NCBI RefSeq assembly: GCF_000004825.1
Contig: NW_008805069.1
Coordinates: forward strand, 364,972 to 428,971
Source: Heterostelium album PN500
Lineage: Eukaryota; Evosea; Eumycetozoa; Acytosteliales; Acytosteliaceae
DNA length: 64,000 nt
Direction of reading: 5' to 3'
Below, piece by piece: positions 31,552 through 49,713 of this stretch. A program made the position numbers and the translations under genes. The notes under the pieces were generated by a model. The model saw only the letters and a program-made list of their open reading frames with translations. It did not search any database and was not told the origin of the DNA. Numbering within the stretch: the stretch's first letter is position 1; every line of letters starts with the position of its first letter.

Positions 31552-33279
31552 TTATTGGTCTTGATGATAAAATATGCTTGCACAATAGGTTCTGTAATAT
31601 TGATCATTTGGAAGAATAGATTCCCATTTGTTGTTTTCAAATGAGAACATAAAATTTTTATCTTTTCCTTCGATTGAATAAATATAGGCTTGACCATCAT
31701 CTGATTGATGATAAATTAAATTGTGATTACCATGAAAATTGATTTTACTCTTATCGAATAATTTGATTTCACTAATTTCTATATTGATTCTATGTAATCC
31801 TAAAGATGATTGAATATAGATATTACCATTACCATCTGTACATACTGCTCTTTCTGAAACGTTTTCTGGTATTTCAATTGGTAATTCAACAGTTGTTTTG
31901 TTTTGTATATCAAACTGAAAAATCTTATTAATCACTGGAGTGAAAGTATAGATATAACCTTTGAAGAGGAATGTAAGATGATGATAATCTGTGTTGATTT
32001 CGATTGTTGAGTATCTTTCAAATGTTGAATTGTTGATGTTGTATCTGTAAATATCGGTTTTTGTTTTACCATTTGCATCGAATATATAGATATGATCTTG
32101 ACCATCATAACAAGCTGATAAATAGCTGCATTTATCAACACCTTTCATTTCTTCGATAACTACTGTTTTGGTGTTGATTGAATACTTTAGATATTTATTG
32201 TGCTTATTATATCCACCACCAAATATATAGATAAAGTCACCAACTTTAACAATAGAGTTGAATGCTGGAAATGAATCATCCATTTTCATATCTATATCTT
32301 GTTGTTCGAAATGAATGTTGATTCGATCTGTAATATTGATGATTGATATTTTAATATTTCTATCAGCTGAGAATATATATGATTGTTTATGTTGGTTTGA
32401 TATTATTTTGTGCTGAATATGTGATTGATTTGGTATTACTTTGAATGATGATTGAATTTGATTTTTGATTTGATTAAATAGTTCATGATAAACAATAAAT
32501 CGATATTGTTGCGTTGTTGGTTGTTGATTGTCATGATGATTATTGATTTTAATTGATTTATTGTGTTCAAGTAATAAATTTAAAAGTGAATGATCATCAT
32601 TGTTGTTTACTTTGTTGTCAAGTTGATCATAATCGAAATAGAACAATGTATTGTTGTTCGATGAAATGAATTCATTGTGATCCGAACATTGTGAAATCGA
32701 TCGAATTATTGTTGTTATTTGGTAGTTATCTGTTGTATCTGCTGTTGATATGGCTGTTGATTGTATATCTGATCGATCATTGCTATTATTATTATTATTT
32801 TTATTAATATTAATATGATTATTAACAGTATTCAATGATTTCATGATTTTGATTTGTTTATCGATTTGTTGTTCTAATTGTTGTTTACTATCTACGATAG
32901 TTGTCTTTAGTTTATGTTCTTCAACAACAAGGAATTCATGTAACTCTTTGAATTTACTTTCAATCTCTTGTTCTGTTTGTTGTAATTGTTCATATTCCAC
33001 AACTTTTATTTTCAAAGAATCGAATGTTGTTTGAATACTTCTTTGAATATCTTTAATTCTATTATTATTATTATTATTTAATTGATTGCTATCTGTGTAA
33101 GTTTTTGAATCCTCCTCATTATTATTGATATTTGCTTTAATATTATCGATATGATCGAATGAATGACTTGCATGCTTTGGTGAACATACGGAACACATCA
33201 AAACATTACAATCATAACATATTAATTCAAAACTCTTTTTATGTATTCCACAAATATTATTATTACTATTACTATTCAT
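31552..33279 (-). CDS. B-box zinc finger, coiled-coil, beta-propeller protein (copy 2)
   Basis: 575 aa, single exon, tail-to-tail with DNA-PKcs (89 bp between stops). The B-box is CGIHKKSFELICYDC, CSVC and closing His. An Asn-rich linker is followed by the shared coiled coil, the SISQCSDHNEF segment, and propeller blades (KVGDFIYIFGGG, ACYDGQDHIYIFD, FKGYIYTFT, CTDGNGNIYIQS, AYIYSIEGKDKNFMFSFE). No stops or frameshifts. Intracellular scaffold or adaptor function is inferred from the domains only. Confidence 0.85.
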   Translation of the reverse strand: MNSNSNNNICGIHKKSFELICYDCNVLMCSVCSPKHASHSFDHIDNIKANINNNEEDSKTYTDSNQLNNNNNNRIKDIQRSIQTTFDSLKIKVVEYEQLQQTEQEIESKFKELHEFLVVEEHKLKTTIVDSKQQLEQQIDKQIKIMKSLNTVNNHININKNNNNNSNDRSDIQSTAISTADTTDNYQITTIIRSISQCSDHNEFISSNNNTLFYFDYDQLDNKVNNNDDHSLLNLLLEHNKSIKINNHHDNQQPTTQQYRFIVYHELFNQIKNQIQSSFKVIPNQSHIQHKIISNQHKQSYIFSADRNIKISIINITDRINIHFEQQDIDMKMDDSFPAFNSIVKVGDFIYIFGGGYNKHNKYLKYSINTKTVVIEEMKGVDKCSYLSACYDGQDHIYIFDANGKTKTDIYRYNINNSTFERYSTIEINTDYHHLTFLFKGYIYTFTPVINKIFQFDIQNKTTVELPIEIPENVSERAVCTDGNGNIYIQSSLGLHRINIEISEIKLFDKSKINFHGNHNLIYHQSDDGQAYIYSIEGKDKNFMFSFENNKWESILPNDQYYRTYCASIFYHQDQ

Positions 33280-33448
33280 TTTATTTTATAGTATTATTTA
33301 GGTTAAATCTAAGTAAAAAAAATTTTACATCTTTGAAAATATGATCGTCATATTGTGTTTTTAAAAATTACACACCAGAAAGCTTCAAATATAAAATAGC
33401 GTGATATATATATTGTTGAATGGTATTTCGACAATTCAGAATTTAAAT

Positions 33449-34466: not shown

Positions 34467-34558
34467 ATTGCAAAGATTTTTAATATAGTTTTATTATTTA
34501 AATGACACAAACCCAGAGTCCATTTAAATAATAAAACTATATTAAAAATCTTTGCAAT
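34467..34558. repeat. perfect 38-bp inverted repeat (fold-back hairpin)
   Basis: Arm 34467-34504 is an exact reverse complement of 34521-34558, separated by a 16-nt loop (ACACAAACCCAGAGTC). A transcript from either strand would form an uninterrupted 38-bp duplex. It may be a miniature fold-back element or a small-RNA precursor. I see no flanking target-site duplication. Confidence 0.9.
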
Positions 34559-35910: not shown

Positions 35911-37585
35911 ATGAATAGTAATAGTAATAATAATATTTGTGGAATACATAACAAAAGTCTAAAGTTCATATGTTATGATTGTAATGTTTTGATGTGTTCT
36001 GTATGTTCACCAAAACACTCTGGTCATTCATACGATCATATTAATAACATTAAATCAAATATCAATATCCACAATAATGAGGATTCAACCTCTTTCGCAT
36101 CTAACAATCAATTAAATAATAATAATGCGATAGGAATGAAAGATATTCAAAGAAGTATTCAAACAACATTCGATTCTTTGAAATCAAAAGTTGTGGAATA
36201 TGAACAATTACAACAAACAGAACAAGAGATTGAAAGTAAATTCAAAGAGTTACATGAATTCCTTGTTGTTGAGGAACATAGATTAAAGAAACCAATCATC
36301 GATAATAAACAACAATTAGAACAACAAATCGATAAACAAATCAAAATCATGAAATCATTGAATACTGTTAATAATCATATTAATATTAATAAAAATAATG
36401 ATAATAATGATGATCGATCAGATATACAATCAACAACAACAGATACAACAGATAACTACCAAATAACAACAATAATTCGATCGATTTCACCAATGTTCCA
36501 GATCACAATGAATTCATTTCATCGAACAACAATACATTGTTCTATTTCGATAATCAAAACAACAAAGTAAACAACAATGATGATCATTCACTCTTAAATT
36601 TATTACTTGAACACAATAAATCAATTAAAATCAATAATCACCATGATAATCAACAACAAGCATACAACAATATAAGTTCATTGTCAATAATGAACCATTT
36701 AATCAAATCAAGAATCAAATTCAATCATCATTCAAATTACAGAATGTAATATCTATTCAAAATAAACAATCATATATATTCTCAACTGATAATAAAAATA
36801 AATTATCAATCATCAATATTACAGATCGAAACAATATTCACTTTGAACAACAAGGTATAGATATGATTTGTTCCTGCTCAGCATTCAACTCCATTACAAA
36901 AGTTGGTGACTTTATCTATATGTTTGGTGGTCATACAACGGGATACAACAAATTTATCAAGTATTCAATCAACACTAAAACTTTGGTTTCTGGAGACATG
37001 AAAGATATCACTCCAAGCAGCTATCTATCAGCTTGCTATGATGGTCAAGATCATATCTATATATTCGACGGATATTTTAAACCAAAAACCGATATTTACA
37101 GATACAACATCAACAATTCAACATTCGAAAGATACTCAACAATCGAATTCAATACAGATTACCATCATCTTACATTCCTCTTCAAAGGTTATATCTATAC
37201 TTTCACTAGCACAAAAAAGGTTTTAAAGTTTGACATACAAAACAAAACAACGGTTGAATTGTCAATTCCCAGTGCATATAACACTTCAGCAAGCGTAGCA
37301 TGTACAGATGGTAATGGTAATATATATCTTCTATCATCTTTAGGATTACAACGAATCAATATAGAAACCAATGAAATCAAATCGTATGATAACAGTAAAA
37401 TCAATACAAATCCCGACTACAATTTGATTTATCATCAATCAGATGGTGGTCAAAGTTATATTTACTCGATCCAAGGAAAAAATAGAAATTTTATGTTCTC
37501 ATTTGAAAACAACAAATGGGAATCTATTCTCCAAAATGACCAATCTGACAGAATGTTTTGTGCAAACATATTATATCAACAATAG
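35911..37585 (+). pseudogene. B-box/propeller gene, broken by frameshifts (copy 3)
   Basis: The full-length family plan is present from CGIHNKSLKFICYDC to the last blade, but in three frames: 35911 to about 36490, about 36510 to 36660, and 36660 to 37585. Compared with the paralogs, the SISQCSD segment carries a net 2-nt insertion near 36488-36500, and one A is missing near 36660 (GCATACAA instead of GCAATACAA). The net shift is not a multiple of three, and no splice sites would remove it. The rest is well preserved, so inactivation is recent or these are sequencing errors. Confidence 0.8.
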
Positions 37586-37673: not shown

Positions 37674-38404
37674 ATGTCACCACTCAGAGCCAAGAGGATG
37701 GTCCTTAATCGTAGTAAGCCGGCTGTAATCGGTTCGATTGTTGGTTTAGGGAATTCCGAAAATATGTTATTTTCCAGAGTGAACATTGCATTATCCAATT
37801 TCCACCATTGCTTTTTGATTATGATTGGATTAAATATATCAAATATGGTGAGTACCGATCGTATCATTCAACTATTCTCAAGAGTCGAAACGTTTCGTAT
37901 CAAATCCGACGAATTTGATAGCATGGTTAAAAATGGAATTGAATTAAGAGAGTATTTATGTGATGAATACTCCGATAGCGAAGAATTAGATTATACAGAA
38001 TCAATTGTTAAGGAGCAATACTTAGTACACCTTCCGCCGATGCCAAATCTAAAGAACATCACTGTCGATAGCTACAATGGATATAAATCAAACTATAGTT
38101 CATTTCTAACATCGATACTTACAAGCACACCGAATGGTGATGGTCATGGCATTTAATCATTCAAGATCGAAATTAACAATGATTTGGATTATGAACCAAT
38201 CTTCAGTTGCTTGGACTACTTGAAACCGCTCGTAAATTATCACTCGAACACTTTGAAATCAACCGAAATCAAGTATATCGATATTATAACTTCCAAGATG
38301 TGGAAAAGTTACTTCAGAAATTGAAGAAGTTGGTTCCAACATTGGAACAACATAATTACTCATTCATTTTGTATGCCGACTATAGAAAGTTAGAAAGAGC
38401 ATGA
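37674..38404 (+). pseudogene. decayed LRR/F-box-like dictyostelid gene
   Basis: The frame from 37674 reads DRIIQLFSRVETFRIKSDEF and LPPMPNLKNITVDSYNGYKS, then stops at 38154-38156 (TAA). The same frame continues after the stop (SFKIEINNDLDYEPIFSCLD) up to about 38290. After that, another frame carries the coding signal (NFQDVEKLLQKLKKLVPTLE) to the stop at 38404. The style is that of the large dictyostelid F-box/LRR families, but no F-box is visible. At least one nonsense mutation and one frameshift make it a pseudogene. Confidence 0.6.
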
Positions 38405-38848
38405 CAAGATCTAAAAGTATATCAATATTTATGTAATCAAAAGATCATATAGAATTTACCTGATGATATTTAAGAATTTGTAAACACGTATACGATGGTG
38501 AAGAGGAAGAATTCGATAACAATCATTTTAAAATAAAAAATCAAATAAACATAAGTTGCTATAACTTAGAAAAAAAAATCTGTGAAAAACAGGCCACCAC
38601 CACTATGATAATTTTGTTTTTAAAAAAATTTTTATGTATTTCAATACAAAGTTTATATATTCTTGCTTGTAACCAAAAATCGAATAAAATACTCTGATCA
38701 TATCAACCCCAATTTTTTTTTAAATTAATGAACAAGGGGAAGTGATTGGGAACCAGTTTCGTTTTGTTATCATTGAAAAAAATTTAACATTTGTTAAAAT
38801 TATTATTTTCATTCACCTTTATGTTGCCACAAACTTTAAAGAAATCAA
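38405..38848. other. AT-rich intergenic region
   Basis: 444 bp upstream of B-box copy 4. A motif CTTGCTTGTAACC followed by AAATCGAA at about 38663 recurs at about 41284, upstream of copy 5, so the tandem duplication includes part of the promoter. No gene seen. Confidence 0.5.
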
Positions 38849-40591
38849 ATGGATAGCAATAATAGTAATAATAAAAATATTTGTGGAACACATAAAAGAA
38901 GTTGCAAGTTCATATGTTATGATTGCAATGTTTTGATGTGTTCTGTTTGTTCACCAAAACACGCACGTCATTCATTCGATCATATCGATAATATTAAATC
39001 AAATTGCAACGGAGACGATACACCACACACAGCAACTACAGATAATGACAACAACATAAATAATAATAATAATAATGATGATAATAGTAATTATAGTTTT
39101 CAAGGTTTCAGAGATATTCAAAGAAGTATTCAAACAACATTCGATTCTTTGAAATTAAAAGTTGTGGAATATGAACAATTACAACAAACAGAACAAGAGA
39201 TTCAAAGTAAATTCAAAGAGTTACATGAATTCCTTGTTGTTGAAGAACATAGATTAAAGACAACTATCGTTGATAGTAAACAACAATTAGAACAACAAAT
39301 CGATAAACAAATCAAAATCATGAAATCATTGAATACTATTAATAATCATATCAGTATTAATACAATATATAGTAATAATAATGATGATGATCGATCATCT
39401 TCACAATCATCATGTTCATCACAATCAACAACAACCGTAGATACAACAGATAACTACCAAATAACAACAATAATTCGATCGATTTCACAATGTTCGGATC
39501 ACAATGAATTCATTTCATCGAACAACAATACATTGTTCTATTTCGATAATCAAAGCAACAAAGTAAACAACAGCAATGATCATTCACTCTTAAATGTATT
39601 ACTTGAACACAATAAATCAATTAAAATCAATCATCATCATGACAATAAACAACTAACATCACAACAATATCGGTTTATTGTTAATAATGAACGAATAAAT
39701 CAAGTCAAGAATCAAATTCAATCATCTTTCCGGTTAATATCAAACCAAGATAAACAATCATATATATTCTCAACTGATAACAATAATAGAATATCAATCA
39801 TCAATATTACAGATCGAAACAACATTCATTTTGAACAACAAGATATCAAAATGACAATGGAAATGACTGGCACTTTTCTTACATACAACTCTATAGTTAA
39901 AGTTGGTGACTTTATCTATATATTTGGTGGTAGTAATTTTGGCTACAACAAGTTTATCAAGTATTCAATCCACACCAAAACAGTAGTTATTGATGAAATG
40001 ATCGGTGTTGATAGGTGTCTTTTTTTATCAGCTTGCTATGATGGTCAAGATCATATCTATTTATTCGATGGACATGGAAAATCTAAAACCGATATTTACA
40101 GATACAACATCAACGATTCAACATTTGAAAGATACTCAACAATCGATATCAAAACAGATTATCATCATCTCACATTCCACTTCAAAGGTTATATCTATAC
40201 TTTCACTGGGTTAACAAGAAAGATTTTTAAGTTTGATGTGAAGAACAGAACAATATTTACATTACCAATTGAAATCCAAAAATACACTTCAGCAAAAGCA
40301 GTATGTACAGATGGCAATGGCAATATATATATTTTAACAGAATATGGATTAGCTCGAATCAACATTGAAACCAATGAAATCAAATTATTTGATAACAGTA
40401 AGGGCTGTATCAATAGTAATCACAATTTGATTTATCATCAATCAGATCATGATGGTCAAACTTATATTTATTCTATCCAAGGAAAATATGGAAACTTTAT
40501 GTTCTCATTTAACAGCAACAAATGGGAGTCTATTCTCCATAATGATCAATCTGACAGAGCTTATTGTGCAAACATATTCTATATAAACTGA
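38849..40591 (+). CDS. B-box zinc finger, coiled-coil, beta-propeller protein (copy 4)
   Basis: 580 aa, single exon, intact. It begins MDSNNSNNKNICGTHKRSC. The B-box (CGTH, CYDC, CSVC, H...H), the coiled coil with EYEQLQQTEQEIQSKFKEL, a Ser-rich spacer and the SISQCSDHNEF segment are followed by propeller blades (KVGDFIYIFGGSNFGYNKF, ACYDGQDHIYLFDG, FKGYIYTFTG, CTDGNGNIYILT). It converges on a short gmd relic. It is unit 1 of the B-box/gmd duplication. Confidence 0.85.
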   Translation: MDSNNSNNKNICGTHKRSCKFICYDCNVLMCSVCSPKHARHSFDHIDNIKSNCNGDDTPHTATTDNDNNINNNNNNDDNSNYSFQGFRDIQRSIQTTFDSLKLKVVEYEQLQQTEQEIQSKFKELHEFLVVEEHRLKTTIVDSKQQLEQQIDKQIKIMKSLNTINNHISINTIYSNNNDDDRSSSQSSCSSQSTTTVDTTDNYQITTIIRSISQCSDHNEFISSNNNTLFYFDNQSNKVNNSNDHSLLNVLLEHNKSIKINHHHDNKQLTSQQYRFIVNNERINQVKNQIQSSFRLISNQDKQSYIFSTDNNNRISIINITDRNNIHFEQQDIKMTMEMTGTFLTYNSIVKVGDFIYIFGGSNFGYNKFIKYSIHTKTVVIDEMIGVDRCLFLSACYDGQDHIYLFDGHGKSKTDIYRYNINDSTFERYSTIDIKTDYHHLTFHFKGYIYTFTGLTRKIFKFDVKNRTIFTLPIEIQKYTSAKAVCTDGNGNIYILTEYGLARINIETNEIKLFDNSKGCINSNHNLIYHQSDHDGQTYIYSIQGKYGNFMFSFNSNKWESILHNDQSDRAYCANIFYIN

Positions 40592-40814
40592 AGCAAATAG
40601 AACTTTAATAAAAACTTGTATTTTGTATAATTATTATTTTCAAAATATTCTTGGTTAGAATAGTTGATGTAAAACAATATTTAAACTATTTATAAACATC
40701 TGGGAATGTTTTATATTATTTATAATTATCATTATCATTAAATTGATGATGAAGGGTGGGTATCTTGTAATAGCCCTCATCGACCTTTACCACCTTACTA
40801 AAATAAAAGGTTAT

Positions 40815-40943
40815 TTCAGTTGGACGGAAATAACGCGGATTGATCTGTACCAATACATCACTGATGACTTCGTTGTAACCTACTTCATCGAGAACTTCAC
40901 CATGCTACTTGATGGTGATGTTGATTTCATGGAATGACTTTTG
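40815..40943 (-). pseudogene. old relic of the gmd 3' end (unit 1)
   Basis: The sequence from TTGGACGGAAATAACG to the end matches positions about 46438-46565 of the intact gmd gene with many substitutions (roughly four in five bases agree by eye). Parts of the catalytic-domain end coding for RPTEVD and the [16 protein letters not shown] region are recognisable only through the DNA. A shorter second match may lie at 40762-40799. It is non-functional and the oldest of the duplicate fragments. Confidence 0.75.
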
Positions 40944-41429
40944 TCATAAATCATAAAGATTGATCAATACTAATTTGATTGTCTCTTTCTCATTATTGGT
41001 ATGTTTTTTGTTGTTGATCGACAAAGATAAAATGAATATATAACATTCGGATAAATTAATTAAACTTACAGAAAGAGCAATATATTTGAGGTATAAGTGC
41101 AAAAATCTCTTTTCAAATACGGTGGTTTTAATCAAACAAATAATAAAAGATTATTATTCATGCTATCTTTAATCGAAATTTTTAAAGTATTCTTTTTAAA
41201 GTATATTATAAGATAACTAATAATCCCATTCGTGTTATAAAAATTTATTACACCAAATGATCGACACTCGATACAAAACTGCTCTTGCTTGTAACCCTAA
41301 ATCGAAAAAATAATGGCAAAACACTAATCATAAAAACCACTAATTTTTACTATTTTTTTCAATGTTTTAAAAAAGAAAAAATTAATCTTTAATTTAACAT
41401 TGTCATATTGTTAACTTTTTAAAAAAATA
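40944..41429. other. AT-rich intergenic region
   Basis: 486 bp upstream of B-box copy 5, with the CTTGCTTGTAACC motif at about 41284. No gene seen. Confidence 0.5.
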
Positions 41430-43178
41430 ATGAATAGAAATAATAATAATATTTGTGTAAGACATAAAAGAAGTATTGATCTCATTTGTTATGATTGTAA
41501 TGTTTTGATGTGTCCAGTATGTTCACCAAAACATGCACGTCATTTCTTCGATCATATCGATAATATTAAATCAAATAACAACGATCATGATGATACTGAT
41601 ACTTCAGACACTGAATCTACAGATAAAATCAATAACATAAAGAATAATAATAATAGATTTCAAGGCTTCAGAGATATTAAAACCAGTATGCAATCCACAT
41701 TCGATTCTTTGAAATTAAAAGTTGCGGAATATGAACAATTACAACAAACAGAACAAGAGATTGAAAGTAAATTCAAAGAGTTACATGAATTCCTTGTTGT
41801 TGAAGAACATAGATTAAAGACACCAATCATCAATAATAAACAACAACTAGAACGACAAATCGATAAACAAATCAAAATCATGAAATCATTGAATACCGTT
41901 AATAATCATATCAGTATTAATAATAACATTAATAACAGTAGTAATAATGATGATCGATCATCTTCACAATCGTCATGTTCTTCAAAATCAACATCAACAA
42001 TAACAACAGCAGATACAATAGATAGATACCAAATATCAGCAATCATAACATCGATTTCACAATGTTCGGATCACAATGAATTCATTTCATCGAACAACAA
42101 TACATTATTCCATTTCGATTATGATCAACTTGGCAACAAAGTAAACAACAATGATGATCATTCATTCTTAAATTTATTACTTGAACACAATAAATCAATT
42201 AAAATCAATAATCATCATGACAATCAACAACAAGCAATACAACAATATAAGTTCATTGTCAATAATGAACCATTTAATCAAATCAAGAATAATATTCAAT
42301 CATCTTTTGGATTGGTACCAAAACAAGACAAATTGATATCTATTCAAGACAAACAATCATATATATTCTCAACTGATAAAAATAATAAAATATCAATCAT
42401 CAATATTACAGATCGAAACAATATTCATTTCGAACAACAAGATATAGATATAGCAATGTACAATTCATTTACAGCTTACAACTCGATTGTCAAAGTTGGT
42501 GACTTTATCTATATATTTGGTGGTGGCGAGAATAAGAAGCACAATAAATATCTAAAGTATTCAATCAACACCAAAACAGTAATTATTAATGAAATGAAAG
42601 GTGTTAATCAGTGCGACTTTATATCAGCTTGTTATGATGGTCAAGATCATATCTATTTATTCGATGGCTTTAATAAACCAAAAACCGATATTTACAGATA
42701 CAACATCAACAATTCAACATTCGAAAGATACTCAACAATCGATATCAAAACAGATTACCATCATCTTACCTTCCTCTTCAAAGGTTTTATCTATACTTTC
42801 ACTGGGAATACAAGAAAGATTTTCCTGTTTATGAAGAATAAAACAACTGTTGAATTCCAAATTGATATTCCACGATACTCTTTATCAAAAGCAGCATGTA
42901 CAGATGGCAATGGCAATATATATCTTCTATCAACTTTAGGATTACATCGAATTAACATTGAAGCCAATGAAATCAAATTATTTGATAACAGTAAAATCGA
43001 TTTTAATACAAATCATAATTTAATTTATCATCAATCAAATGATGGTCAAACTTATATTTACTCGATCGAAGGAAAAAATAGAAATTTTATGTTCTCTTTT
43101 GAAAACAACAAATGGGAATCTATTCTCCAAAATGATCAATCAGATAGAACATATTGTGCAAACATATTCTATCAATAA
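41430..43178 (+). CDS. B-box zinc finger, coiled-coil, beta-propeller protein (copy 5)
   Basis: 582 aa, single exon, intact. The N-terminus MNRNNNNICVRHKRSIDL has CVRH as its first zinc pair. The coiled coil has a small change to QQLERQIDKQIKIMK. The linker reads AIITSISQCSDHNEF and the blades follow (FIYIFGGGENKKHNKY, ACYDGQDHIYLFDG, FKGFIYTFTGNTRK, CTDGNGNIYLLS). It converges on the second gmd fragment, as unit 2 of the duplication. Confidence 0.85.
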   Translation: MNRNNNNICVRHKRSIDLICYDCNVLMCPVCSPKHARHFFDHIDNIKSNNNDHDDTDTSDTESTDKINNIKNNNNRFQGFRDIKTSMQSTFDSLKLKVAEYEQLQQTEQEIESKFKELHEFLVVEEHRLKTPIINNKQQLERQIDKQIKIMKSLNTVNNHISINNNINNSSNNDDRSSSQSSCSSKSTSTITTADTIDRYQISAIITSISQCSDHNEFISSNNNTLFHFDYDQLGNKVNNNDDHSFLNLLLEHNKSIKINNHHDNQQQAIQQYKFIVNNEPFNQIKNNIQSSFGLVPKQDKLISIQDKQSYIFSTDKNNKISIINITDRNNIHFEQQDIDIAMYNSFTAYNSIVKVGDFIYIFGGGENKKHNKYLKYSINTKTVIINEMKGVNQCDFISACYDGQDHIYLFDGFNKPKTDIYRYNINNSTFERYSTIDIKTDYHHLTFLFKGFIYTFTGNTRKIFLFMKNKTTVEFQIDIPRYSLSKAACTDGNGNIYLLSTLGLHRINIEANEIKLFDNSKIDFNTNHNLIYHQSNDGQTYIYSIEGKNRNFMFSFENNKWESILQNDQSDRTYCANIFYQ

Positions 43179-43364
43179 ATAGATCTTTTTAAAAAATATA
43201 TTATTCCTAATATCAATCAATCACAGTATTGTTTAGAATATACGAAAAATAAAAATAATAAGTTTATTAAAACAACTTATTTGTGAGAATGTTTTATTAT
43301 ATTATTTATTATTCTTATTATTAAAAATTTTAAGATGTTTTAATAGGTTTTTTATCAGATTAAT

Positions 43365-43837
<473 letters not shown>

Positions 43838-44017
43838 TCATTTCATTCTATCGACAACAACAACAAACAAAGCCAAACTACCAATAGTGAAAAGAGACAA
43901 TCAAGCAGTCTGGTTTATTACTTGATGGATTGGTATCGAGTGCTTTTGCTAATGCTATCACTACTGACTATTGTCGATCGATTTCTATTACTTTATGAAA
44001 CGGTACCACCAACATAA
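43838..44017 (+). other. orphan coding-like fragment with hydrophobic segment
   Basis: 59 open codons and a stop without a good ATG. It reads SFHSIDNNNKQSQTTNSEKR, then a hydrophobic stretch (VLLLMLSLLTIVDRFLLLY). It sits exactly where the gmd homology of unit 2 ends, so it may be foreign sequence joined there. Not recognised. It could be chance. Confidence 0.25.
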
Positions 44018-44194
44018 ATAAAATGTTCATGGCATAATAAAATAGTACTATTCAACTAAATAACGTAATAATAATATGAGGGTGTAATGTTAATACTTAA
44101 CTTTTTTTTGGCCAGCGAACCACCACAAATTATGACCAATTTTAGTGATTTTTTATTTTGTTTTTTTTTTTGTATTTATTTTAATTTAATTTAA

Positions 44195-44352
44195 TTTCAG
44201 TAAAATAAATAAATGAACTGAATAATAATTTAATTATATTATTAATTATATTATAATATTATTTATTAAAACTTAAATACAAAAAAAAATTAATTATATT
44301 ATTAATTATATTATTTCAGTTCAGTAAATTAAAATAAATAAATGAACTGAAA
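44195..44352. repeat. short direct repeats upstream of B-box copy 6
   Basis: A 25-bp AT block (44230-44254) is repeated exactly at 44290-44314. A motif AAATAAATAAATGAACTGA occurs both before the first and after the second block. This is a small local duplication in the promoter region. The remainder of 44018-44387 is AT-rich. Confidence 0.85.
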
Positions 44353-44387
44353 TCAGTAAATTGATTTATATAATATCAAAAAAAAAA

Positions 44388-46109
44388 ATGAATAAAAATA
44401 ATAAGTGTTTAAGACATAAAAGGAGTCAAGAGTTCATATGTTATGATTGTAATGTTTTGATGTGTTCTGTATGTTCACCAAAACACTCACGTCATTCATA
44501 CGATCATATCGATAATATTAAATCAAATAACAATAATAATGAGGAGGATTCAACAACTTACACAGATGACAATGAAATTAATAATAATAACACTAATAAT
44601 ATTAATGAGATAGGATTTAAAGATATTCAAAGAAGTATTCAAACAACATTCGATTCTTTGAAATTAAAAGTTGTGGAATATGAACAATTACAACAAACAG
44701 AACATGAAATCGAAAGTAAATTCAAAGAGTTACATGAATTCCTTGTTGTTGAAGAACATAGATTAAAGACACCAATCATCGATAATAAACAACAATTAGA
44801 ACAACAAATCGATAAACAAATCAAAATCATGAAATCATTGAATACTGTTAATAATCATATTAATATTAATAATAATAATAATAATGATAATATTAATAGT
44901 GGTGATCTACCAGACTCACATTCATTATCTTCTTCACTATCGACAACAACATTATCAGCAGATACAACAGATAGATACCAAATAACAACAATAATTCGAT
45001 CGATTTCACAATGTTCAGATCACAATGAATTCATTTCATCGAACAACAATACATTATTCTATTTCGATTATGATCAACTTGACAACAAAGTAAACAACAA
45101 TGATGATCATTCACTTTTAAATGTATTACTTGAACACAATAAATCAATTAAAATCAATAATCATCATGACAATCAACAATCGAAATCACAACAATATCGA
45201 TTAATTGTTAATAATGAACAAATCAATCAAATCAAGAATCAAATTCAAACATCATTCAAATTGTCATCAAATCAAGACAAACAATCATATATATTCTCAA
45301 CTGATATGGATAATAAAATATCAATCCTCAATATTACAGATCGAAACAACATTCATTTTCAACAACACGATATCGATATGAAAATGTATGATTCATTTAC
45401 AGCTTACAACTCGATTGTCAAAGTTGGTGACTTTATCTATATATTTGGTGGTGGACAGAATAAGAAGCACAATCAATTTCTAAAGTATTCAATCAACACC
45501 CAAGAAGTAGTTATCAATGAAATGAAAGGTATTGATGCATGCCAATACTTATCAGCTTGTTATGATGGTCAAGATCATATCTATTTATTCGATGGATATA
45601 ATAAACCAAAAACCGATATTTACAGATACAACATCAATAATTCATCATTCAAAAGATACTCGACAATCGAAATCAATTCAAATTACCATCAATTCACATT
45701 CCTCTTCAAAGGTTATATCTATACTTTCACTCCAGAATTAAAAAAGATTTTTAAGTTTGATTTTAAGAGAAAAGAAATCGTTAAATTACCAATCACCATT
45801 CCACAAAACAATTCAGCAAGAGCAGTATGTACAGATGGCAATGGCAATATTTACACTCAATCGGATTTAGGACTACATCGAATCAATATTGAAACCAATC
45901 AAATCAATTTAATTAATATCACTCGAATCAAATTTTATAATAATCACAATATGATTTATCATCAATCAGATGATGGTCAAAATTATATTTACTCGATCGA
46001 AGGTGACGATCGAAATTTTATTTTCTCATTTGAAAACAACAAATGGGAATCTATTCTCTATGATGAATCAGACAGAACATTATGTGCAAACATATTATAT
46101 CAACAATAG
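44388..46109 (+). CDS. B-box zinc finger, coiled-coil, beta-propeller protein (copy 6)
   Basis: 573 aa from the ATG at 44388 (MNKNNKCLRHKRSQEF), in an A-rich context. The frame is open upstream to 44361 but without an ATG, and the paralogs start at the equivalent point. The B-box here begins CLRH. The coiled coil, linker and blades follow as in the other copies (KVGDFIYIFGGGQNKKHNQF, ACYDGQDHIYLFDG, CTDGNGNIYTQS). It converges on the intact gmd gene with 185 bp between stops, as unit 3 and probably the ancestral arrangement. Confidence 0.85.
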   Translation: MNKNNKCLRHKRSQEFICYDCNVLMCSVCSPKHSRHSYDHIDNIKSNNNNNEEDSTTYTDDNEINNNNTNNINEIGFKDIQRSIQTTFDSLKLKVVEYEQLQQTEHEIESKFKELHEFLVVEEHRLKTPIIDNKQQLEQQIDKQIKIMKSLNTVNNHININNNNNNDNINSGDLPDSHSLSSSLSTTTLSADTTDRYQITTIIRSISQCSDHNEFISSNNNTLFYFDYDQLDNKVNNNDDHSLLNVLLEHNKSIKINNHHDNQQSKSQQYRLIVNNEQINQIKNQIQTSFKLSSNQDKQSYIFSTDMDNKISILNITDRNNIHFQQHDIDMKMYDSFTAYNSIVKVGDFIYIFGGGQNKKHNQFLKYSINTQEVVINEMKGIDACQYLSACYDGQDHIYLFDGYNKPKTDIYRYNINNSSFKRYSTIEINSNYHQFTFLFKGYIYTFTPELKKIFKFDFKRKEIVKLPITIPQNNSARAVCTDGNGNIYTQSDLGLHRINIETNQINLINITRIKFYNNHNMIYHQSDDGQNYIYSIEGDDRNFIFSFENNKWESILYDESDRTLCANILYQQ

Positions 46110-46294
46110 ATCTTCAATAAAAAAATAGGGCTCTAACCTATCATCAACACTCTCGAAATCTTAATTGGTTATTAATACAAAATTAATAAAAAATAAAAAT
46201 AAATGGTTGATTATCAAAACTATTTTTATATCTGGAATGTTTTTATTATATTAAAAGTTTTAAGATATTTTAATAGATTTTTTATCAGATTAAT

Positions 46295-47652
46295 TTAATT
46301 AAATTGATCATGACCTTTAGAAAGATATTCAACATCTTTGGCAACCATTTCCTTGACCAAATCATCGAAAGATGTCTTGATTTCCCATTTGAGTTCTCTC
46401 TTTGCTTTGGCTGGATTACCAAGGAGTAAATCTACTTCGGTTGGACGGAAATAACGTGGATCGATCTTCACCAATACATCACCGGTGCCTTCGTTGTAAC
46501 CTTCTTCATCGAGACCTTCACCGCGCCACTTGATGGTGATGTTGATCTCACGGAATGATTTTTCGACAAACTCACGTACCGAATGTGTCTCTCCAGTGGC
46601 AATAACGAAATCGTCGGCCTTCTCTTGTTGGAGCATCAACCACATTGCTTCTACGTAGTCACGGGCATGTCCCCAATCACGTTTGGCATTGATATTTCCA
46701 AGAGTGAGAACCTCTTTGTGTCCCTGAGCAATACGTGCAACGAATCTAGTGATCTTTCTGGTTACAAAGGTACCACCTCTTCTTGGTGATTCGTGATTGA
46801 ACAAGATACCATTGCAAGCATACATATTATAAGCCTCACGATAATTAACACAAATCCAAAATGCAAATTGTTTGGCAACAGCTGTTAAATTATAATAATA
46901 AAATATATTAATATTGATTGATAAACTAACTAATGTTTTAATAGTTGATAATTACCATATGGTGAACGTGGATAGAATGGAGTCAATTCTGTTTGTGGAA
47001 TTTCACGTACTTTACCATACAACTCACTAGTTGATGCCTATAATAATAATAATAATAATAATATTGTTGTGCAAAATTAAGAATGTTAAAATTAAAACTA
47101 AAAAAAATGGAGATAACCATATATATTTATAAATGTTTACTAACATACTTGATAGAATCTAATGACATTTTCCATTCCACATGATCTAATGGCATCGAGA
47201 ATACGAAGACAACCAACACCATCGACATCGGCAGTGTACTCTGACATTTCAAACGATACCTTTACATGTGATTGTGCACCTAGATTATAGATTTCAGTTG
47301 GCTTTACTCTATGAATGATTGAAACCAAATTGGTTGAATCTGTAAGATCACCATGATGTAAATGTAATTCTATAATAATAATAATAGATTGGTAATTATG
47401 TTTTAAATTGAAAATATTAATAAAAATAAACTTTAATTAATACTATATTTGTCTGATGACTGATGACTGATACTCACTTGCAGTTGGACCAGTGAAATTG
47501 AGATGTTCAATTCTGCTGGTGTTGAATGAAGACGATCTACGAATGATACCATGTACTTCATAGCCTTTCTCCAACAAGAACTCTGTCAAGTATGAACCAT
47601 CTTGACCGGTGATACCTGAAATCAATGCAACTTTTCTTCTTTCGGTTGTCAT
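46295..47652 (-). CDS. gmd: GDP-mannose 4,6-dehydratase
   Basis: Converts GDP-mannose to GDP-4-keto-6-deoxymannose, the first step of GDP-fucose synthesis in the cytosol. Exons on the minus strand: 47652-47478, 47369-47149, 47037-46956, 46881-46295, giving 354 aa (the human enzyme has about 372). The N-terminal Rossmann motif [19 protein letters not shown] binds [19 protein letters not shown], the ASTSELYGK loop with catalytic Ser/Thr and Glu, and the Y-x3-K pair (SPYAVAK, split by the third intron) follow. [26 protein letters not shown] and [10 protein letters not shown] complete the SDR fold. It has all expected active-site residues. Its 3' end has been copied twice upstream. Confidence 0.96.
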
Positions 47653-49713
47653 CTTCTCTTTATAAAATATATAACAATTATTACTATTAATTAATCAAAC
47701 AAATAAACCAAATGAAAAACACAATGAATCAAAAAAATAAAAATAAAAAATTGAACTTTAGTTTGTTTTAGTGTTGGGATGATGATCATCATCCCCATCA
47801 TCACGAACCACACAATAAATTATGTTTACTTTATTTGACTAATTGTTTTTCACATAAAATTAATTTTGGATATTATGAAAAATAAAAGTAAAGAATGACT
47901 TGCCCAATATCAATATAATCCTTTCGATATTTGCAAAATAAAATTTATTTTTTATTTATTTTTATTTTTATTTTTTTATTTCATTTTTAAAAAATGCACT
48001 GCATTGTTTGTCTGTGATTTTAAATTAAAACTTTAAAGTTTCAATCCAATAAGTCTAATTTAAACTATTTAATGTAGAGTTTCGAATTAATCAATTAATT
48101 GTTTGATTTACTAATACTTTGATTTCAAATTCAAATGGATGATTCAATAATTCACCATCAACAATCATCTTATGAAGTACACCAGGTGTCATCATAAACA
48201 ATTGCAGACATAAATACTTGACAATAACGTTTTTTTTGTTTTTTGTTTTTTTTTTTTTTTAGGCAGTGGTTTGCAGAAGGTCTAAGGGTGGTGAGTCCAT
48301 AGGGTTACAATGAGTTTTTGTTCAAATTCAAAAAAAAAAAATTAAAAAATTAAAAAATTAATAAAATTGTTTTACAAAGAAGCACGCACTCATTGAGTTA
48401 CCACTTGCAACATAATAAAAAAAAAAGTAATTTAAATTTGAATTTTTTTTAAAAAACAAAAACATCATTAATTAATTGGTTGTAATCTATTATTCCTCTC
48501 ACAATCTTTCTATCTATAAAATATAAAGGTAAAAAAAGTTCTAATTATTATTATTTTAAAGATTCTTTTATTTTCAGAATTATTTGTAAATATAAACAAA
48601 ATAGTAAAAAAATAAAATAAAAAAAGAACTTAAGGAATCAAAGTAATCTTTTTTTTGTTTTTGTTTTTTAAGTTACAATTTAAAAGTATTTTTTTTTTTC
48701 TTGTATAAGTTTTGATATTTATTTTCACAAAGGTTAGGTTGTTTGTAAGTTAGGTAACAAAAAAAAAAAAAAAACAAATTAAAAAAAAAAAAAAAACAAA
48801 TCAAGTGGTTTGTTGAAAAGAATTAAAAAATATTAAATTCTTTTGTTGTTGCTCAACTCATAAATCAAATATAACCTATAATTAATCAAGCGTAAATACA
48901 ATAGAATACAATTATCACATTACACTCTGACTCACTCACACAACCATACTACACTACAATTCTATATTCTCTAAATTAGTTCAATTTGCAAACTGAAAAA
49001 CAAAAATAAATAATTAATTGTTAAATAAATACAACAACCATTCATTCTTTGCAAATTAAATTAAATTAAATTAAAAATTATATATAAAAAAAAAAAAAAA
49101 AGAAAAAAAGACACAAACCCACTTTACAACTTAATAAATTAATAACCACAAAAAAAAACCACAATCATTAATTTCAAGTAAGGATAAATATAACAACAAA
49201 ATAATCAGATAAATAACAAAATCCTACTCACCACTCACTGATAATAGATACATAGATAATTTATCGTTTATTCCCATTTGTCTCCTCATCTATTATTAAA
49301 AATAATAATAATAAAATAATATTTTTTTTTTTGTTCTCTTGTTAATTTTAAATTATCAATACCAAGTTTTTTTTTCTTTTTTACTTTTTTTTTGATCTTT
49401 TATAAAATTATTTGTATAATTATTAAAACTATTCAATCTTATCTATAAAATAAAAAACATTCTACTATTGGATTTAATATTAATATTAAAAGTTTATTCT
49501 CTCTTTTTAATAAATACAATTAATTAGTTTTTTGTAATACCAAAAAGTACCATTTGAATTCATTCAATTTTATATAAAATATAACAACAACAAAAAGGTA
49601 GAACCAAATCGTATTCAATCAATACTCAACCAAATCAAATCAAATCAATCTATATATATATATCATTAAAAGTTTAGACTAGTTTATTATAAACAAAAAA
49701 AGACAGCAACAAC
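47653..49713. other. long AT-rich intergenic region with A/T homopolymers
   Basis: 2.06 kb between the divergent gmd and oxysterol-binding genes. Many A or T runs of 10-20 occur (for example 48240-48260, 48760-48800, 49085-49110). A coding-like minus-strand patch at 48091-48231 is listed separately. Next to it, on the minus strand, the segment ending CTGCAAACCACTGCC is followed by a run of about 20 A, like the tail of a retrotransposed sequence. No tRNA found. Confidence 0.5.
48091..48231 (-). other. orphan coding-like fragment (minus)
   Basis: 46 codons and a stop read VIVKYLCLQLFMMTPGVLHK, then MIVDGELLNHPFEFEIKVLV and a short end. Residue composition and codon texture are those of a conserved globular protein's C-terminus. 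It is cut at its 5' side by poly-A runs without a clear splice acceptor. I do not recognise the family. It is most likely a 3' gene relic. Confidence 0.35.

Follow-up and report, generated by a model that had tools for sequence, protein, structure and literature searches.

Organisation of the three units

The window analysed here, the terminal 64 kb of contig C8 in a genome of 32.9 Mb and 39 contigs whose style of genes points to a social amoeba (a dictyostelid), carries three consecutive B-box/Kelch genes on the plus strand (U2, U3 and U4), each of which lies tail-to-tail with gmd sequence on the minus strand (Table 1). In U4 this sequence is the intact gmd gene, which is full length and has four exons separated by GT-AG introns; in U2 it is a relic (g2) and in U3 a 3' fragment (g3). 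The intact gene matches the Pfam family GDP_Man_Dehyd, with four matches covering positions 1-332 of the PF16363 profile in order within one gene, as befits a GDP-mannose 4,6-dehydratase, and its exon-4 ORF matches solved chains of this enzyme (6q94, 1t2a and others) at E ~1e-64. The U4 B-box ORF as listed opens with TTG at 44361; the ATG homologous to that of its relatives is at 44388. Two further B-box copies lie in the window: U1 (35911-37585), which is split into two ORFs by a frameshift placed by eye near 36490, and M31 (31561-33288), an inverted copy upstream of U2 that has no gmd sequence.

Table 1. Features of the three units, with positions in the window
Feature	Position	Strand	Remarks
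B-box/Kelch gene U2, 580 aa	38849..40591	+	ORF; Kelch_6 above cut-off, zf-B_box below (21.4 vs 24.1 bits)
U2 spacer	40592..40740	.	related to U3 (z 4.8) and U4 (z 4.4) spacers; stretch compared runs to 40760
gmd relic g2	40812..40942	-	114/131 identical to gmd; 87%, 131 bp, E 2e-37
DHHC acyltransferase gene piece behind g2	40974..41016	-	alignment to DHHC gene on C10, z 7.8
Upstream element of U3, common to U2 (38661-38717)	41283..41348	.	z 5.4; first 30 bases E 1.7e-6
B-box/Kelch gene U3, 582 aa	41430..43178	+	ORF; zf-B_box and Kelch_6 exceed Pfam cut-offs
U3 spacer	43179..43324	.	related to U2 (z 4.8) and U4 (z 5.4) spacers
gmd 3' fragment g3	43325..43826	-	10 substitutions in 501 aligned bases, plus 13-bp and 9-bp deletions
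Identical stretch in g3, inferred conversion tract	43348..43668	-	321 bp, equal to gmd 46278-46598
DHHC-gene relic piece, inverted relative to next	43828..43904	+	z 10.5; 43843-43904 E 9e-8
DHHC-gene relic pieces, collinear with gene on C10	43923..44047	-	87% over 47 bp, E 2e-9; 44017-44047 alone E 6e-4
B-box/Kelch gene U4	44388..46109	+	ORF; zf-B_box and Kelch_6 above cut-offs (scan from 44391)
U4 spacer	46110..46255	.	related to U2 (z 4.4) and U3 (z 5.4) spacers
Intact gmd, 354 aa	46295..47652	-	exons 47652-47478, 47369-47149, 47037-46956, 46881-46295

The first-pass annotation had described three consecutive units of a B-box gene with antiparallel gmd sequence and proposed a self-dot-plot as the check. 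Comparison of the window with itself bears this out: the B-box end and the gmd end recur as a collinear repeat, with a B-box DNA identity among U2, U3 and U4 of about 83-85% and a match of gmd at 43309-43826 of 93.7% over 540 columns. When positions 46295-46860 were used as a DNA query against the 32.9-Mb assembly, only three places were returned, namely the gene itself, g3 and g2; this query comprises most of exon 4, with exons 1-3 outside it, and it revealed no other exon-4 piece in the genome, including behind the B-box copy U1.

The repeat extends into non-coding DNA. Five units (U1-U4 and M31) were compared over the 166-172-bp stretches past the B-box stop, each pair against 100 dinucleotide shuffles, and the three pairs among U2, U3 and U4 are related (z in Table 1); the other seven, all involving U1 or M31, reach a z of at most 1.8 and are unrelated. 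Global alignment gives 100/126 identical bases for U2/U3 (79%), 91/121 for U2/U4 (75%) and 99/117 for U3/U4 (85%), the last in a gap-rich alignment of 175 columns. These values are less clear against mononucleotide shuffles (about 0.74, 0.74 and 0.76, respectively), and U2/U4 is hardly above them. B-box gene, spacer and gmd tail thus recur in the same order and orientation in three units, as in a tandem segmental duplication, and by their sequence U2, U3 and U4 look like collinear duplicates. The earlier proposal that the breakpoint lies within gmd and that the gmd 3' flank is included also stands, as the local duplicates carry the gmd 3' end together with the spacer. Retroposition, which would have left processed copies of gmd, was considered and set aside, since beyond gmd the units U2, U3 and U4 have related genomic spacers. 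Upstream of the B-box genes, U2 and U3 have an element in common, and the U4 upstream flank has no similarity to theirs (z -0.1 and -1.6).

DHHC-gene pieces behind the gmd fragments

Behind both g2 and g3 lie pieces resembling a DHHC acyltransferase gene, an intact relative of which is found on contig C10 (domain at 1180943-1181392, PF01529 E 5.9e-32). The relic in U3 (43828-44047) follows g3 directly and contains a small internal inversion. In U2 the match is short, spanning about 45 bp, and partly CAA-rich; a 30-base word from it, picked from the C10 alignment after that alignment had been made, has 3 mismatches at this place and 8 at the next best ungapped place on either strand of the 64-kb window. 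When the complete tails of U2 and U3 are compared with each other, their common piece scores 55 (z 3.9), with the best of 300 shuffles at 64. Restricting the tails post hoc to their initial 120 and 150 bases lowers the shuffle maximum to 27, against which the same alignment is clear, and blastn of the two 3' regions gives E 1.7e-6.

Elsewhere the search for DHHC pieces was negative. None lies upstream of intact gmd in 47651-49700 (z 2.6 and 1.5), and to the left of U2 none is found among the matches listed, nor by a scan of words that left out those of low complexity and also missed the known piece in U2. Among the matches listed for 12 close B-box paralog loci (of 30), no DHHC relic is convincing, the three weak matches having E values of 4e-5, 5e-4 and 0.002.

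Since in U2 as in U3 the gmd piece is followed by a DHHC piece, it appears that gmd was truncated once and that the truncated unit was then multiplied; one event would probably have joined gmd to the DHHC gene. It is possible that the two junctions are independent, given the short DHHC match in U2 and the different points at which the gmd sequence ends (gmd 46563 in g2 and 46778 in g3). As in tandem segmental duplications with partial gene copies, an entire gene has been copied along with a piece of its neighbour cut at the breakpoint. The present case differs in that the convergent neighbour is kept in two extra pieces and that the relic of a second gene appears to mark the junction.

Two ages within the third unit

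The first-pass annotation had read g2 as an old relic and g3 as a recent fragment, and so as dates of serial duplications. This dating is not supported when the adjoining B-box genes and relic g2 are taken as yardsticks. Whereas g2 has 17 differences from gmd in 131 bases, g3 has none at the same 131 sites (P 9e-6), and the 321-bp core of g3 is free of differences altogether; about 27 would be expected there had only g3 changed since the B-box split, at a rate of half the four-fold divergence. At four-fold codons the core shows 0/42 differences and the B-box genes of U3 and U4, with a dS of 0.28, show 16/95 (P 0.003). The parts of the third unit are therefore not of one age, which speaks against g3 as a plain, untouched part of that unit and not against the duplication itself. 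As divergence is much the same among the B-box genes U2, U3, U4 and M31 (dS 0.23-0.36) and DHHC pieces stand behind both gmd fragments, the youth of g3 is local.

Within g3 the differences cluster at the ends, more strongly than uniform divergence would produce. A gap as long as the one observed has P 2e-5 when 13 events, including an end gap of 1 base, are taken as independent, and P 0.015 when neighbouring events are merged to 6; both values are given, as changes that lie close together may have arisen jointly. Coding constraint is a poor reason for the identity, as the 13-bp deletion breaks the reading frame of g3. Most likely, then, g3 has recently been overwritten by intact gmd through gene conversion, and we take gmd as the donor, since gmd retains the coding sequence of a complete enzyme and g3 is broken. 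In PMC3924818, conversion tracts range from 50 to several hundred bp, and 321 bp fits the range given there for interlocus gene conversion. The pattern likewise resembles conversion between genes and pseudogenes, in which a fully identical, sharp-edged stretch lies inside an otherwise diverged copy. Unlike in the usual case, sequence would have passed from the functional gene into a 3' fragment, one that sits inside the array of another family.

Outside the core, 10 of 180 bases of g3 depart from gmd, which is less than the 17/131 of g2 (P 0.025). This low divergence may reflect an earlier, longer conversion, or the fragment may be younger than g2. The latter would suit serial tandem duplication with separate breakpoints in gmd and without any conversion, g2 being old and g3 recent. 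That history would account for the different gmd end points, for the lower divergence of g3 over its whole length (10/501 against 17/131) and for a U4 upstream flank unlike those of U2 and U3. It also predicts, however, that the B-box genes of U3 and U4 should match each other roughly as well as g3 matches gmd, which their four-fold differences contradict; many gaps are needed to align the U3 spacer with that of U4, and DHHC pieces stand behind both gmd fragments. We regard serial duplication of this kind as unlikely.

Still less probable is an artefact of assembly or consensus, in which the g3 consensus would have taken in reads that belong to intact gmd. In its favour, the shift from 0/321 to 10/180 differences is sharp, and the sequence comes from one assembly. 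However, the assembler kept the distal differences and deletions of g3 distinct, and the identical stretch is short, with unique flanks close by on both sides.

A role for the identity itself seems very improbable. Selection would here keep g3 identical as a putative source of antisense or small RNA against gmd, supplied by transcription running on from the U3 B-box gene, and over 321 bases a plus-strand read-through transcript would be an exact antisense match to the 3' part of gmd. Against this, the identity stops within g3, near where the deletions start, and one AATAAA (43248) precedes g3, though one is about what chance provides: U2 and U3 each have one between the B-box stop and the gmd piece, with shuffle means of 0.57 and 0.85, so that the count says little. 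Just as improbable is a version in which repeated conversion would keep g3 matched and a putative plus-strand read-through RNA would tune gmd, and hence fucose metabolism. Both g2 and g3 are probably decaying relics with no function.

On balance we favour a history of a single truncation, multiplication of the truncated unit by crossing-over and later conversion of g3 by gmd. The ancestral segment would have held the DHHC gene (minus strand), a B-box gene (plus strand) and gmd (minus strand) in this order. A tandem duplication with its ends inside gmd and inside the DHHC gene would have fused the gmd tail to a DHHC piece and placed this fusion ahead of the next B-box gene. The truncated unit could then have multiplied through crossing-over among the repeats, so that U2 and U3 came to precede the original end with U4 and gmd. 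From there both gmd relics would have decayed, g2 diverging until only 131 bp were still recognisable and g3 acquiring its frameshifting deletion. Later, a non-reciprocal gene conversion from intact gmd, 2.6 kb away, would have overwritten a tract of about 321 bp in g3, which now looks recent. Several observations sit less comfortably with this history of single truncation and conversion: the shortness of the DHHC match in U2, the different gmd end points, the dissimilarity of the U4 upstream flank to those of U2 and U3, the lack of a DHHC piece to the left of U2 in the scans described above, the U2/U4 spacer identity close to that of shuffles, a B-box tree that gives no order, and the lower divergence of g3 than of g2 outside the core, which calls for more than one conversion or a younger fragment.

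The locus is thus an ordinary local duplication history of a gene array combined with a neat candidate case of conversion, and would form a compact record of truncation, multiplication and later overwriting within one array. It also carries a warning, in that the age of a duplication may not be readable from how closely the resulting pseudogene fragment matches its source. If confirmed with reads, it would be an ordinary but clean instance of conversion from a functional gene to a fragment over 2.6 kb. No literature on this locus was found at the level of titles and abstract openings, together with passages of PMC3924818 and PMC4931340.

The wider B-box family and neighbouring sequence

The units had further been taken as a record of how the B-box family expanded. 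The U4 protein has at least 77 matches in the genome (E <=1e-20, split genes being counted in pieces), and gmd exon 4 accompanies only three units; the arrangement is therefore not the mechanism of family growth, and the locus leaves the wider family unexplained. A tree of 15 rows chosen from the family is an unresolved star, in which 4 of 12 inner branches are starred and none orders U1-U4, and a duplication order based on it was accordingly dropped. Conversion among the B-box genes themselves is not claimed either. A mosaic test gave P <=0.006 in 19 of 20 triples when unthinned, and this signal vanished once neighbouring changes were thinned to a spacing of 12 columns (0/20 triples with a median P <0.05), although thinning also costs power.

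Two other features were noted in the part of the window that precedes U2. Behind U1, positions 37674-38466 hold a relic of an unnamed gene family with 20 DNA matches in the genome, itself included, 9 of the others lying on the same contig at 249-324 kb; the ORF in the window and two relatives had no Pfam family above cut-off. Finally, 34468-34558 is an inverted repeat whose arms, each about 38 bases long, look perfectly complementary by eye.
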